From positions 57,057 to 121,056 of the forward strand of contig CACNFD010000005.1 in the NCBI GenBank assembly GCA_902619615.1: 64,000 nt of DNA, read 5' to 3'. The notes below the pieces were generated by a model. That model had not been told where the DNA came from. It made no database searches and saw nothing but the letters and a program-made list of their open reading frames with translations. Every line of letters starts with the position of its first letter. Positions within the stretch are counted from its first letter, which is position 1. This DNA comes from an uncultured SAR116 cluster alpha proteobacterium (GTDB lineage Bacteria; Pseudomonadota; Alphaproteobacteria; Puniceispirillales; Marisalimonadaceae). Of the stretch, positions 58,994 to 64,000 are shown one piece after another. The translations under genes were made by a program, and so were the position numbers.

Positions 58994-59070
58994 GCGCTCT
59001 TAGCTCAACTGGATAGAGTATTTGACTTCGAATCAAAAGGTTGGGGGTTCGAGTCCCTCAGAGCGCACCA
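58994..59070 (+). tRNA. tRNA-Arg (anticodon TCG), CCA encoded
   Basis: GCGCTCT...AGAGCGC acceptor stem, TTTGA-CTTCGAA-TCAAA anticodon arm, GGGTTCGAGTCCC T-arm, ACCA end. Confidence 0.95.
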
Positions 59071-59083
59071 TTAATTTTTCTTA
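59058..59083 (+). repeat. direct repeat copy 1 (tRNA-Arg 3' end plus flank), att-like
   Basis: TCAGAGCGCACCATTAATTTTTCTTA; near copy at 59639-59663. Confidence 0.5.
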
Positions 59084-59111
59084 AACACATCATACTTCAA
59101 TCATAATTAAT

Positions 59112-59366
59112 TCAAAAAAACTTAGACCAAATTTCTAAAATAAAAATATATATACCATAACCATATAAACAGAAAACACAAAACTTTAGAATCTTATTTA
59201 AAATATCATCTGAAGTATATACCCATTGATGATAATTTTTTTCTAATCCTAAATCATCATTTTTCCTTTTATTCCATAATAAGAACCAATAAGGAATATT
59301 AAGCATGATGTAAAAACATATGGCTATGGTAATTAGACCTAAACCTAAAATTATTCCAGTACTCAT
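59112..59366 (-). CDS. small membrane protein, unknown
   Basis: 84 aa, two TM segments (GIILGLGLITIAICFYIMLNIPYWFLLW; ILKFCVFCLYGYGIYIFILEI). Confidence 0.5.
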   Translation of the reverse strand: MSTGIILGLGLITIAICFYIMLNIPYWFLLWNKRKNDDLGLEKNYHQWVYTSDDILNKILKFCVFCLYGYGIYIFILEIWSKFF

Positions 59367-59638
59367 TTTTTTAATTCAATCATATTTAATCCTCTAATTT
59401 TTTTATTTATCCACCCAATAAGTATTGTAGGTGAGAACAATATAAATAATACGATTAAAATCAATTCTAACTTATTTATTTATACCTTATATTTTATAAA
59501 TACGCATATTAAATACATTTTCAATATGAAAGAAATGTATATCAATTTGTACTTTAACTTAATTATAAATAAATAATAACATATAAAATCAATAACATAG
59601 GAAAATCATTTATGTACTGTAAGTAAACATAATTTCAG

Positions 59639-59663
59639 TCAGAGTGTACCACTAATTTTCTTA
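59639..59663 (+). repeat. direct repeat copy 2 (degenerate tRNA 3' end), att-like
   Basis: TCAGAGTGTACCACTAATTTTCTTA; 3 substitutions and one 1-nt gap relative to copy 1. Confidence 0.5.
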
Positions 59664-59823
59664 TAATAATGATTTTATTAGATATTATACTTTATTCACG
59701 ATTAAACTGATGTCCATATTGATGCACAAAAAAGTTCCTCAAAGTGGATGTGGTAGATATAATAATTATTGAGGTTAAATAGTCCAAATACAGAGATAAA
59801 TATTGAATACGCATGAATGAGTT

Positions 59824-60264
59824 ATGGTTAGATTTTTTTTATTTATATTATTTGCGATAATTTCTAATAATGCAATTGCATCCGTCCAAGGTAAGACATT
59901 AATTTGTGATAAAGATAGTAGGGGATATAAATTTATTAGTAAGGATAAAGTTGAAATTTTGAGTATAAAGTTTGATGAACTAAGTATAAATTCCATTAAT
60001 CACTTATATGAACTCGCTGAAAACGTAATTTTAATTAAAAAACCACTAATAGAATTTAACAAAAATAAAAACTCTAAACCTATTGGATGGATTTTTAGAA
60101 GAACTTTAGACTATGTATCATTAGATTATGTTAATGGAGATTGGAGCAGGAGGTTTTTATGGAGTTGTAAAATCACTTCATCAGACCAGCTAGATAAAAG
60201 GTTAAAAATTAAAATTGAAAAATTAATAAAATCTAGTGTGAATAAGATAAAGGAGTTTAATTAA
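59824..60264 (+). CDS. small secreted hypothetical protein
   Basis: 146 aa with signal peptide MVRFFLFILFAIISNNAIASVQG. Confidence 0.55.
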   Translation: MVRFFLFILFAIISNNAIASVQGKTLICDKDSRGYKFISKDKVEILSIKFDELSINSINHLYELAENVILIKKPLIEFNKNKNSKPIGWIFRRTLDYVSLDYVNGDWSRRFLWSCKITSSDQLDKRLKIKIEKLIKSSVNKIKEFN

Positions 60265-60265
60265 T

Positions 60266-60610
60266 ATAGTAAAGTATATTGGATTACTAATATGTTTGTT
60301 AATTATAATTGGAGCTATATCTCACGTTGGTTTGAATTATTATAATGATATGTTAAGCTTTTCATTTGTTGCAGGTGGAAGTGTTGGTTATGGTTTCTTA
60401 AAAGACCAAGAGGGTAAATTTATAATAAATTGTGGTAATGGTGCAGTTTATTTTGGATGGTTTGGTACTCTAATAGGATTAATAGCTTTAACTGCTGGTA
60501 AATGGGAGAATTGGTGAGATATAGATAAAACTGGTACTGCTTTGTCTTTAGCAATGCTGACTGTTTTTTATGGTTATATAATAAAACTGATTACTGTTGT
60601 TTTTAAATAA
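60266..60610 (+). pseudogene. decayed mini MotA-like protein (paralogue of 48085-48429)
   Basis: IVKYIGLLICLLIIIGAI...YNDMLSFSFVAGGSVGYGFLKDQEGKFIINCGNGAVYFGWFGTLIGLIALTAGKWENW*DIDKTGTALSLAMLTVFYGYIIKLITVVFK; in-frame TGA at 60515-60517 and no good start codon. Confidence 0.65.
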
Positions 60611-60676
60611 GCTAATTAAAACTGTCACACTTACTAAAATAGAAGGCCATAAAGATAGAATACTTATTTAAAAAGT

Positions 60677-61015
60677 TTAGTTGAAGTCTTCTGAGGTAAA
60701 TTCATGTAAAACAATGCCTCTACTACCAACTACTTTATTAACAAAAGTTTTTACTTTTGGAGCATGATATTTATCTAACAGAGTTTGACATGCAACAAAT
60801 GCTTTTTCATCTCTATATTCAAATAATATTCCTACTCTTGCAACACCTTCTTTATTCCAAATTCTAGTTAAAACTCTCCTTAACATTCCAGCTTTTTTGA
60901 ATTCTTCAATAACTCTTGGAGTAAAAATTTCATCTTGCTTTTTGGCATACAATTCAAGTTCATTGTCTGACATAAACTCTCTTGTAGTATAATTAATTAA
61001 TTTTGATGTTGGCAT
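60677..61015 (-). CDS. small hypothetical, dimeric alpha-beta barrel-like
   Basis: 112-aa ORF MPTSKLINYTTREFMSDNELELYAKKQDEIFTPRVIEEFKKAGML... Confidence 0.5.
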   Translation of the reverse strand: MPTSKLINYTTREFMSDNELELYAKKQDEIFTPRVIEEFKKAGMLRRVLTRIWNKEGVARVGILFEYRDEKAFVACQTLLDKYHAPKVKTFVNKVVGSRGIVLHEFTSEDFN

Positions 61016-61419
61016 TTAATCTTCCTATAAATTATGTAGATTTTAATAGATGCATATTTAGAATTTGTAAACCATAAAAATACTTATCTGCTGCACGCCC
61101 TAACTATAAATATTAAAAATATCTTTACGCTCAGGCAGTGTTACAAATAAATGTTATTATAGTTATTTATATTTATAAATATTCATGTTCTCGTTATCTG
61201 TAATACTAACGCTAAATTAAGATGTAACATTTAGGTTATACTAAACAATATAATGTTTTTTATACCTATGATCTAATGACTTAATACGCATAAATAGTCA
61301 TTTTATTGAAATTATAAAATACGAACAACATTTCATAATTTTTTATTTTAAGTTACAATAAAAAACGTTTTAATAATTTTTAAAATTTATAATTAATATT
61401 AATTAAAAAGTGGGGATAA

Positions 61420-61821
61420 ATGATAAAAAATATTTTATTCAAGATAATGCCTTTATTAGTGTCATGTCTTATTTTTTCAAATAACGTTAATGCTCAAGGT
61501 TCAGCTGAGGATCAATATAAACAAATGGGTGGTGTAGCCGGTCTATCAGAAGTATGTTTTAAGTCTAAAAATTTAGAACTAGCCTTATTTAAGCAAATTG
61601 GTCAATTATTTTATACTCAACCAGAAATGGGTGAGATGATGTTTGGTCTTTTGTATTCTTACTTTGATGCTAAGTCAGTTGCTGTAGAAAATAAGGTGAT
61701 ATGGAATGGTACAACACAATCATATAATAAAAAACAATTTGACTGTAATAACGCCTCTGACACAAAACTTATCAAACAATTCGAAATGCAATTAATGAAT
61801 GGTTTAAAGTCCCAAGGTTAA
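61420..61821 (+). CDS. small secreted hypothetical protein
   Basis: 133 aa, signal peptide ILFKIMPLLVSCLIFSNNVNAQG, two Cys in mature part. Confidence 0.55.
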   Translation: MIKNILFKIMPLLVSCLIFSNNVNAQGSAEDQYKQMGGVAGLSEVCFKSKNLELALFKQIGQLFYTQPEMGEMMFGLLYSYFDAKSVAVENKVIWNGTTQSYNKKQFDCNNASDTKLIKQFEMQLMNGLKSQG

Positions 61822-62027
61822 TTAATAGCTTTAACTTTAAGATAAAACAATGTGATATTGAAATGATTTCTATAAAAGATGCATCTATATCAAAATTAAA
61901 AGAGTTTTTGATTGAAAAAAATTTTGTTAATTTCCTTAAGAAAAAACTTTGATTTAAAATAATAAGGATTTTGACTAGAAATGATTATAGTAATTATATA
62001 AGTCTGTATGAGTGAGGAATGATTATC

Positions 62028-64000
62028 CTAATTAAATTGTACAAGCACTCTATCTTTATCACCCTGTAGTTCAGGGGTTTGTGAGCCTGAGGATTGTTGT
62101 ACAACGTTTTGTTTTACATATGCGTGTAACTCACGTGCTGTGATTTTATTGTTATTGTTACTGTCTGCATCACCTTCCATACCTTTCATGAGGAAGTATG
62201 AAAACATACCATGTTTTGCTTCTTCTAGTGGCTTGCTTGTCTGGTCACCTGCAGCTGCAGAAAAGACTGTGAAGTTTTCAGGTATGGATTGTTCAATTGC
62301 ACGTATGGTAATTGGTCTAGAAGAAATAAGCATATCTGTTCCACGTGTTGCTCCAGAATAACATGTATCTAAGAAAATTGTGACACTTCGTGGTTTAGCT
62401 TGTTTGATATCTTTGAATAACTCTTTTCTCTTAATTGCTGATGTTAATAGTCTAGGTGAACCATCATATGGAAGAAGAAACATATCTTTACCATCATCAG
62501 ATGCTAAGCCATGTCCTGCAAAAAATATGTATATGTCTGTAATATCTTCCTTAGTTGTACGATTTATCCAATCTTTTATAGCTAACCCTATTTCAACTCT
62601 ATCAGCTTTTTGATTAATCAATTCTTTTATATTAGCCCTAGGAACACCTAGTTTCATTGTTGCATAATCATAAAACTGTTGTGCGTCTTTATCTGCATAG
62701 ATAGCGTTAGCATTAGTTTTTTCGTAATCAGCCACACCTATTATAAGAGCAATAGCATCAGGATTATTAAATGCTTTTTTTTCTAAAGGGTTAAGCCTAT
62801 CAAAACTTGGGCCTGAAGCTTGTTCAATATCATCACGTTCAATGATTATATTTTTTGATGCCTTATTACCTTTTTTATCAAAAGCAACTATCTCAAAAGA
62901 AAGTCCACCACGAGGAATATATAATTCTGTTTCAAATATCCCTTTCTTTGAAAAAGGTATTTGTTCTCCATCTATTAAAATCTCAACAACCTCTGTATTA
63001 TCTGTTACAGTTCCAATTATTTTTGCGTTTGCTCCAATTACTTTATGAGAAGATTTTATTTTAGGCTTTTCTATATCATTATTAATTTTAATTTGTTCAC
63101 TTTTCTTTTTGGCTTCGAAGGCCGCTAGTTTCCTTTTTAATTCTTCTGCTTCACGTTTAATTTTATTAAATTCTTCTGAATTTGCAGCAGTCGCAGATTT
63201 AGGTTTTTTTTGAACTTTTAAGAATTCTCCATTTTTAAAAACACCTTTGAGAATAGAGCCATTAGCAAAAGTAAATGCTCCCTTACCGTGAGGTTTGTCA
63301 TCTTTTATTTGTCCGACGTATTTATCACCATTAGCCCATAGATAAATACCTTTTCCATTACCTTTGTCATTTTTATGCTCACCAACATATTTATCACCAT
63401 TAGACCAAACCATCGTTCCTTGTCCATAAGCAACATCGTTTTTGTGGCTTCCTACATATTTACTTCCATTTGAATAAATAAATGTACCTTTGCCATTTGC
63501 TTTACCATTTGCATGTTCGCCAAAATATTTATCTCCATTTTTGAATTTCATTATCCCATAACCATGTGCTTTGTCATTTTTATGCTCACCTTCATATTCA
63601 TCGCCATTTGCGTAAGTGAAGATACCTTTCCCATTAGCCTTACCATTTTTATGTTGGCCAACATATTTGTTACCATTAGCCCAAAACATAGTCCCTTTGC
63701 CGTTTGCAAAGTCTGATTTAAATTGACCAACATATTTGGCTCCATCTTTCCAAATTAATGAACCATAACCATCAAATTTATTATTTTTAAATTCACCATT
63801 GTAAATTGCACCATTAGAGAATTTGTGAGAGCCAGTGCATAGATGCTTATAATTTTGGTTAGAACATCGTTGCAAGGATTTTGATATTACTTCATTAGAT
63901 TTTTGATTTAATAAGTTAGCTATCGTGGCTTCAGGAAGTTTGATTTTTTTAGAATATTGGAAAACATTATCTTTCCAAATACCTTCTTTAGTTTTTCCAT
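62028..64000 (-). CDS. MORN-repeat / Ig-like / caspase-family (C14) protein, 5'-partial at window end
   Basis: ORF track start at 63875 is a TTG; the same minus-strand frame is open to base 64000 (...KTKEGIWKDNVFQYSKKIKLPEATIANLLNQKSNEVISKS-LQRCSN...). Caspase dyad FFAGHG (His 62511-62513) and LDTCYSG (Cys 62361-62363). Confidence 0.92.
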   Translation of the reverse strand, partial: GKTKEGIWKDNVFQYSKKIKLPEATIANLLNQKSNEVISKSLQRCSNQNYKHLCTGSHKFSNGAIYNGEFKNNKFDGYGSLIWKDGAKYVGQFKSDFANGKGTMFWANGNKYVGQHKNGKANGKGIFTYANGDEYEGEHKNDKAHGYGIMKFKNGDKYFGEHANGKANGKGTFIYSNGSKYVGSHKNDVAYGQGTMVWSNGDKYVGEHKNDKGNGKGIYLWANGDKYVGQIKDDKPHGKGAFTFANGSILKGVFKNGEFLKVQKKPKSATAANSEEFNKIKREAEELKRKLAAFEAKKKSEQIKINNDIEKPKIKSSHKVIGANAKIIGTVTDNTEVVEILIDGEQIPFSKKGIFETELYIPRGGLSFEIVAFDKKGNKASKNIIIERDDIEQASGPSFDRLNPLEKKAFNNPDAIALIIGVADYEKTNANAIYADKDAQQFYDYATMKLGVPRANIKELINQKADRVEIGLAIKDWINRTTKEDITDIYIFFAGHGLASDDGKDMFLLPYDGSPRLLTSAIKRKELFKDIKQAKPRSVTIFLDTCYSGATRGTDMLISSRPITIRAIEQSIPENFTVFSAAAGDQTSKPLEEAKHGMFSYFLMKGMEGDADSNNNNKITARELHAYVKQNVVQQSSGSQTPELQGDKDRVLVQFN
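63227..63815 (-). repeat. tandem MORN repeats (about 23 aa / 69 bp unit, 8 full copies plus a partial)
   Basis: NGDKYVGEHKNDKGNGKGIYLWA-type units in series. Confidence 0.9.

Follow-up and report, generated by a model that had tools for sequence, protein, structure and literature searches.

Prokaryotic caspase homologues (metacaspases and orthocaspases) are built around a Peptidase_C14 domain with an HC dyad, to which accessory domains are joined (PMC3501461, PMC6426788). N-terminal transmembrane helices that may be signal peptides have been reported for bacterial metacaspases, for which an extracellular or fratricidal role was suggested (PMC3501461); EF-hand motifs have been reported for some archaeal orthocaspases, and trypsin, caspase homologue and DUF4384 domains occur together in one alphaproteobacterial protein group (PMC6426788). 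A study on Baltic metagenomes describes MORN/metacaspase proteins with 1 to 4 MORN repeats N-terminal to the metacaspase domain (PMC4933709). The paracaspase MALT1 has an Ig-like domain beside its caspase. As for genomic setting, the tRNA-anchored flexible islands, namely tycheposons and additive islands in which the tRNA ends are repeated (PMC10872708), combine a tRNA boundary, a repeated tRNA 3' end, a tyrosine recombinase and variable cargo.

The SAR116 locus described here resembles each of these systems in part. It has the Peptidase_C14 domain, dyad and accessory domains of prokaryotic caspase homologues, but differs from them in the predicted lipobox leader and the 17 MORN units of its full-length orthologues and in the Ig-like spacer found in most of the family, as well as in the expansion of the family within one marine order and its link to tRNA-anchored islands. 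The number of MORN units, the spacer and the leader also set it apart from the Baltic proteins, which have their MORN repeats on the same side of the caspase, as described so far. We interpret the encoded protein as an exported, lipid-anchored MORN-Ig-caspase protease, which on balance is probably an island-borne envelope effector used in defence or competition.

The window, i.e. the whole stretch of 64,000 nucleotides that was analysed (G000:C5:57057-121056), reaches the end of its contig, which is 121,056 bases long and stops at window base 64000, so that the MORN-caspase gene is cut short at its 5' end and this assembly holds none of the sequence past 64000 whose inspection the preliminary description called for. 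Its minus-strand frame is open over 656 codons without a stop up to the window edge, running past the TTG at 63875; that this TTG is internal and that the frame extends beyond the window, as stated in the preliminary description, is therefore correct. Judging from the orthologues, the whole protein is predicted to have about 1,013 residues, of which the fragment represents the last 656, and about 360 N-terminal codons are absent; the missing 5' part was searched for in the rest of the assembly and was not found. The features of the locus are as follows.

62028 to 63998, minus strand: 3' part of the MORN-Ig-caspase gene (ORF list, contig end and orthologue comparison)
63954 to 63998, minus strand: final turn belonging to the upstream (first) MORN array (orthologue comparison and orthologue model)
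63213 to 63833, minus strand: second MORN array with flanking turns, its eight units repeating at exactly 23 residues (Pfam; PDB matches to MORN1, E 3e-38)
63081 to 63182, minus strand: helix or coiled coil, residues 273-306 (single 32-residue helix in the full-length orthologue model)
62832 to 63077, minus strand: Ig-like beta domain, Glucodextran_B-like, residues 308-389 (Pfam E 3e-4, below cut-off; six strands, pLDDT about 93)
62061 to 62753, minus strand: caspase (Peptidase_C14) domain, residues 416-646 (Pfam, AlphaFold model and fold search)
62685 to 62687, minus strand: Asp438, predicted S1-pocket acid (Asp in 78 of the 78 rows having a residue there)
62511 to 62513, minus strand: codon of catalytic His496 (FFAGHG; His in 79 of 79 relatives)
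62367 to 62369, minus strand: Asp544, predicted S1-pocket acid (Asp in 74 relatives, Glu in 5)
62361 to 62363, minus strand: codon of catalytic Cys546 (LDTCYSG; Cys in 78 of 79 relatives)
62130 to 62165, minus strand: EF-hand-like loop DxNxNxxIxxxE, residues 612-623 (near-invariant in relatives)
62028 to 62081, minus strand: 3'-terminal 54 bp of the caspase gene (QTPELQGDKDRVLVQFN and stop), common to divergent paralogues and orphan copies
61997 to 62030, minus strand: remnant (about 30 bp) of the island-end module found after caspase genes in relatives (30-34 bp, 88-90% identity)
59071 to 62027, no strand: variable part of the island, low in GC and holding small unknown genes
59112-59366 (minus), 59824-60264 (plus), 60677-61015 (minus, DUF6974) and 61420-61821 (plus): small island genes
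58994 to 59070, plus strand: tRNA-Arg(TCG), the island boundary, with the M20-tRNA-Arg arrangement also seen beside islands in relatives

The N-terminal half of the fragment agrees with what had been read from its letters. The proposed tandem array of at least eight MORN units is borne out by Pfam (PF02493, E 3e-35, 118 bits against a cut-off of 22.5) and by eight GxG turns that start at residues 77 to 238 with a perfect 23-residue spacing, far from chance; its sequence relatives in the PDB are MORN1 and radial-spoke proteins. The MORN-like turn noticed upstream of the TTG, KEGIWKDNVFQY, is shown by the orthologues to be the end of an earlier MORN array, and the coiled coil corresponds to one 32-residue helix after the arrays. 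The Ig-like segment was likewise recovered, as a six-strand beta domain in the AlphaFold model and as a sub-threshold Glucodextran_B match in Pfam (residues 318-389).

The caspase domain matched Peptidase_C14 (PF00656) with 71.0 bits against a gathering cut-off of 21.4 (E 1.5e-19), over model positions 3-225 of 233. An AlphaFold model of the last 363 residues, based on 73 sequences, had a mean pLDDT of 87.7 and placed a caspase fold after the six-strand domain; it was used for the fold search because in the model of a full-length orthologue (nine sequences) the MORN arrays were confident and the caspase part was poor. The best Foldseek matches in the PDB were MALT1, metacaspases and caspases, and a profile search gave a weak link to eukaryotic metacaspases (E 6e-5). 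MALT1 was among the best matches (3v4o, TM by target 0.71), but the SAR116 protein is bacterial and predicted to be exported, is only 15% identical and is without a Pfam Ig family match: the Pfam scan of the fragment gave no Ig, Ig_2 or Ig_3 before p20, the feature used to define paracaspases (PMC6426788). Assignment to the EACC1-associated caspases (NF047832), the sole NCBIfam match of the protein (E 5e-19), was rejected with 68.5 bits against a cut-off of 140, and PADLOC returned a single weak caspase-model match and no complete anti-phage system.

The His/Cys dyad described as intact is indeed present, and the loss of catalytic residues in orthologues, which would have refuted the preliminary description, is not what the 79 relatives show, all of them keeping the His and 78 the Cys. 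Asp438 and Asp544, the latter replaced only by Glu, are presumably the acids of the S1 pocket, as judged by a comparison of motifs with metacaspases. In the EF-hand-like loop, whose family form is DxNxDxxIxxxE, D612 is conserved in 79 of 79 sequences and E623 in 77 of 77, position 614 is N in 74 (D in 4), and at position 616 there are 76 D and 2 N, one of the latter being that of the window protein. Of five caspase loci checked in more distant alphaproteobacteria, two encode similar loops. The dN/dS of the caspase domain was 0.05-0.09, and in all five pairs compared it was lower than that of the Ig-like domain. Because of this selection and of the conserved dyad, S1 acids and loop, the protein looks like a working protease, probably Arg/Lys-specific and possibly calcium-dependent, which upholds the earlier proposal of a proteolytic effector at the level of sequence; a death role is no more than a possibility. 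It could be argued that the protein is a MORN scaffold carrying a vestigial caspase domain, considering that almost half of the full-length protein consists of MORN arrays and that MORN-only open frames are also found in relatives, but the near-universal catalytic and accessory residues and a caspase domain more constrained than its Ig-like neighbour make this very improbable.

Five full-length SAR116 orthologues (L034, L036-L039), 77-91% identical and 1,012-1,013 residues long, provide the missing N-terminus; named relatives, mostly single-cell genomes, place the window in the SAR116 cluster. Their order is lipoprotein leader, 17 regular MORN units in two arrays, 32-residue helix, six-strand beta domain and caspase. 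A predicted lipoprotein signal peptide, called from hydrophobicity and the lipobox pattern, opens all five (LFFLGGC or FLTSC, e.g. MVFKIRNIAIILSPLFFLGGC), and for this reason the MORN array and the caspase are both expected outside the cytoplasm. The window protein is thus predicted, by way of its orthologues as its own N-terminus is missing, to be exported and lipid-anchored rather than cytoplasmic, and the membrane association suggested in the preliminary description appears well founded. In E. coli, sorting of lipoproteins depends on the +2 residue after the lipobox Cys, Asn or Lys rather than Asp favouring the outer membrane. This residue is Asn or Lys, not Asp, in the full-length orthologues, and an outer-membrane location is therefore favoured, although we infer both lipidation and location from the leaders. 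Cysteine proteases are not usually found in oxidising compartments, which counts against the reading as an exported caspase.

Four of the five full-length orthologues have a conserved module of exported proteins next to them, made up of a TPR lipoprotein, a TPR-trypsin whose catalytic triad appears intact, a DUF4384 protein and a lipoprotein of the LPP20 type; the trypsin and the TPR lipoprotein were searched for in the assembly of the window and were not found. One could think of secreted proteases for predation or nutrient acquisition, surface caspases that digest proteins of neighbours, prey or organic particles, given the export, the many variants, the trypsin-like protease in the neighbourhood and the oligotrophic marine host. 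The lipid anchor, however, would restrict their reach, and caspase-type proteases are usually site-specific and not digestive, so that we consider this improbable. The preferred reading as an envelope effector would work as follows. After export the leader Cys would be lipidated, and the protein would sit in the envelope, probably in the outer membrane; the MORN arrays, with 17 or more units, would provide an elongated beta scaffold used in binding or assembly, and copies of the protein may be held together by the coiled coil. The Ig-caspase part would then cut envelope proteins after Arg or Lys, with calcium probably bound at the EF-hand-like loop during cleavage.

The family was searched for in 101 genomes (that of the window and 100 relatives). 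Some part of the query was matched in 48 of them, copies ranging from none to many per genome with at least five matching places in several, and the caspase genes are frequently side by side; a wider search of 289 alphaproteobacterial genomes found only a few close relatives. Nearly all members are apparently exported, as a hydrophobic N-terminal leader opens about 60 of 65 complete ORFs, roughly one third of these having a lipobox pattern. The common Ig-like and caspase part is preceded by MORN, TPR or Sel1 repeats or by a sequence of no known type. In a tree of 78 caspase domains, made by a quick method and with some long branches, the MORN front end requires eight changes, seven of them forced by well-supported branches; the nearest non-MORN caspase is 76% identical, whereas other MORN caspases are about 50% identical. 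The N-terminal module has thus changed repeatedly, and in our reading a single Ig-caspase effector has been fitted with exported front ends that can replace one another and travels on integrative islands anchored at tRNA genes.

As to these islands, the tRNA-Arg(TCG) of the window comes immediately after an M20 peptidase gene; past the tRNA, GC falls to 0.24 and small unknown genes start. The same M20/tRNA-Arg pair borders caspase-bearing islands in six relatives (G013, G014, G016, G025, G021 and G010) and an island without caspase in G008. In G013, G016 and G005, the tRNA 3' end CTCAGAGCGCACCA is repeated about 400 bp after a caspase stop codon, with a DUF6538-type tyrosine integrase between this core and the tRNA; G014 and G017 have the repeated tRNA end about 400 bp after an orphan caspase tail, and in G031 the integrase-tRNA-caspase layout recurs at tRNA-Gly, with a matching tRNA-Gly core. 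The tRNA border, the repeated tRNA ends and the integrase layouts in relatives support integrative islands with caspase cargo. That relatives share the island, like the export signal and the many paralogues with different N-terminal modules, was not visible from the window sequence on which the preliminary description was based. These are distinguished from additive tRNA islands and tycheposons by the caspase cargo at the attachment end and by an integrase lying within inverted repeats of 80-81 bp (98.8-100% identical), each made of the tRNA 3' end plus about 65 bp (L110 16953-18261, L126 744-2052, L143 11-1319 and L124 10113-11913; tRNA-Arg in three genomes, tRNA-Gly in one). For an integrase to be flanked by attachment-like repeats that are inverted and not direct is unusual, and inversion of the segment might be possible.

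G074 has a different integrase and four exported caspases between two identical tRNA-Gly genes, which are separated by 13.2 kb; this region (L107 4992-18278), which also encodes a phrog_4756 protein, is a candidate complete integrative element. Proteins of about 480 aa matching phrog_4756 are present in caspase islands of two genomes (L107 6228-7667; L110 10014-11465) and are a possible link to phage or satellite biology. A phage or plasmid origin of the caspase itself was not retained: no close relative was found in phage records, and the hits were distant viral contigs and distant plasmid caspases, mostly from Rhizobium. The copy in the window may no longer be mobile; its present mobility is doubtful because its island-end module has shrunk to about 30 bp and no DUF6538 integrase was found in the assembly.

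We favour a role in defence or competition over a housekeeping one in view of the patchy distribution, the repeated front-end change and the island linkage. A housekeeping envelope protease, which under stress would process envelope or surface proteins of the cell itself, with an island site that only reflects gene turnover, would fit the strong purifying selection and the neighbourhood of four orthologues, where the exported TPR-trypsin and lipoproteins recall a proteolytic pathway; we regard it as rather unlikely, since genes varying from zero to many copies per genome, changing their front ends and residing in islands are atypical of such a function.

The last 54 bp of the caspase gene are common, mostly at 85-94% identity, to divergent caspase paralogues without other detectable DNA similarity. 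Several genomes, that of the window among them, have orphan tails that lack a caspase body (G000:C18:33703-33763; L111 4794-4942; L114 2365-2487; L123 18691-18799). Most simply, the 3' end of the caspase gene would adjoin the end of the element, orphan tails being remnants of earlier element ends; homologous exchange could contribute to the shared tail. A broader model, which we put forward tentatively as a possibility, is a mobile mix-and-match envelope caspase system of SAR116 and related marine bacteria, in which a calcium-regulated Ig-caspase effector with interchangeable exported sensors or scaffolds (MORN, TPR, Sel1 or unknown) would be spread by tRNA-targeting integrases, the element end abutting the caspase 3' end, and would act in extracytoplasmic immunity or inter-bacterial competition.

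Short MORN-caspase fusions (PMC4933709) and possible signal peptides on bacterial metacaspases (PMC3501461) are already known. Our literature search, with most subscription journals outside its scope, found neither SAR116 metacaspases nor a precedent for the long MORN lipoprotein form, the near-family-wide export in SAR116, the front-end exchange or the tRNA-island linkage. Bacterial caspases have mostly been discussed as cytoplasmic death or defence effectors, while the SAR116 family, from an abundant ocean lineage, would have an apparently active caspase in its envelope, joined to front ends that can be exchanged and linked to mobile islands. The long-standing question of an extracellular action of bacterial caspases, be it against neighbours or on the envelope of the cell itself (PMC3501461), can now be tested with defined proteins.

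SAR116 islands also contain a 114-bp imperfect palindromic repeat in dispersed same-orientation arrays with a spacing of 0.7-2 kb (L123 14252-18729; L137 520, 2104; L138 2701; L139 3520; L142 5117-11289). This arrangement suggested integron cassettes, but the left box is not conserved and the integron integrase IntI (TIGR02249) had no match over cut-off in 61 genomes; the integron reading was dropped, as the arrangement is better explained by an attachment core that consists of a tRNA 3' end and lies about 400 bp behind caspase stops. An Rfam scan of four loci returned tRNAs and one sRNA only, without a match for the repeat. In several places a tRNA-Arg 3'-end core lies behind it. The DUF6974 small protein of the window recurs in SAR116 islands, with 45 ORF matches in the loci fetched, and many MORN-only open frames without caspase are present in SAR116 genomes (G010:C32, G039:C13, G023:C2 and others).
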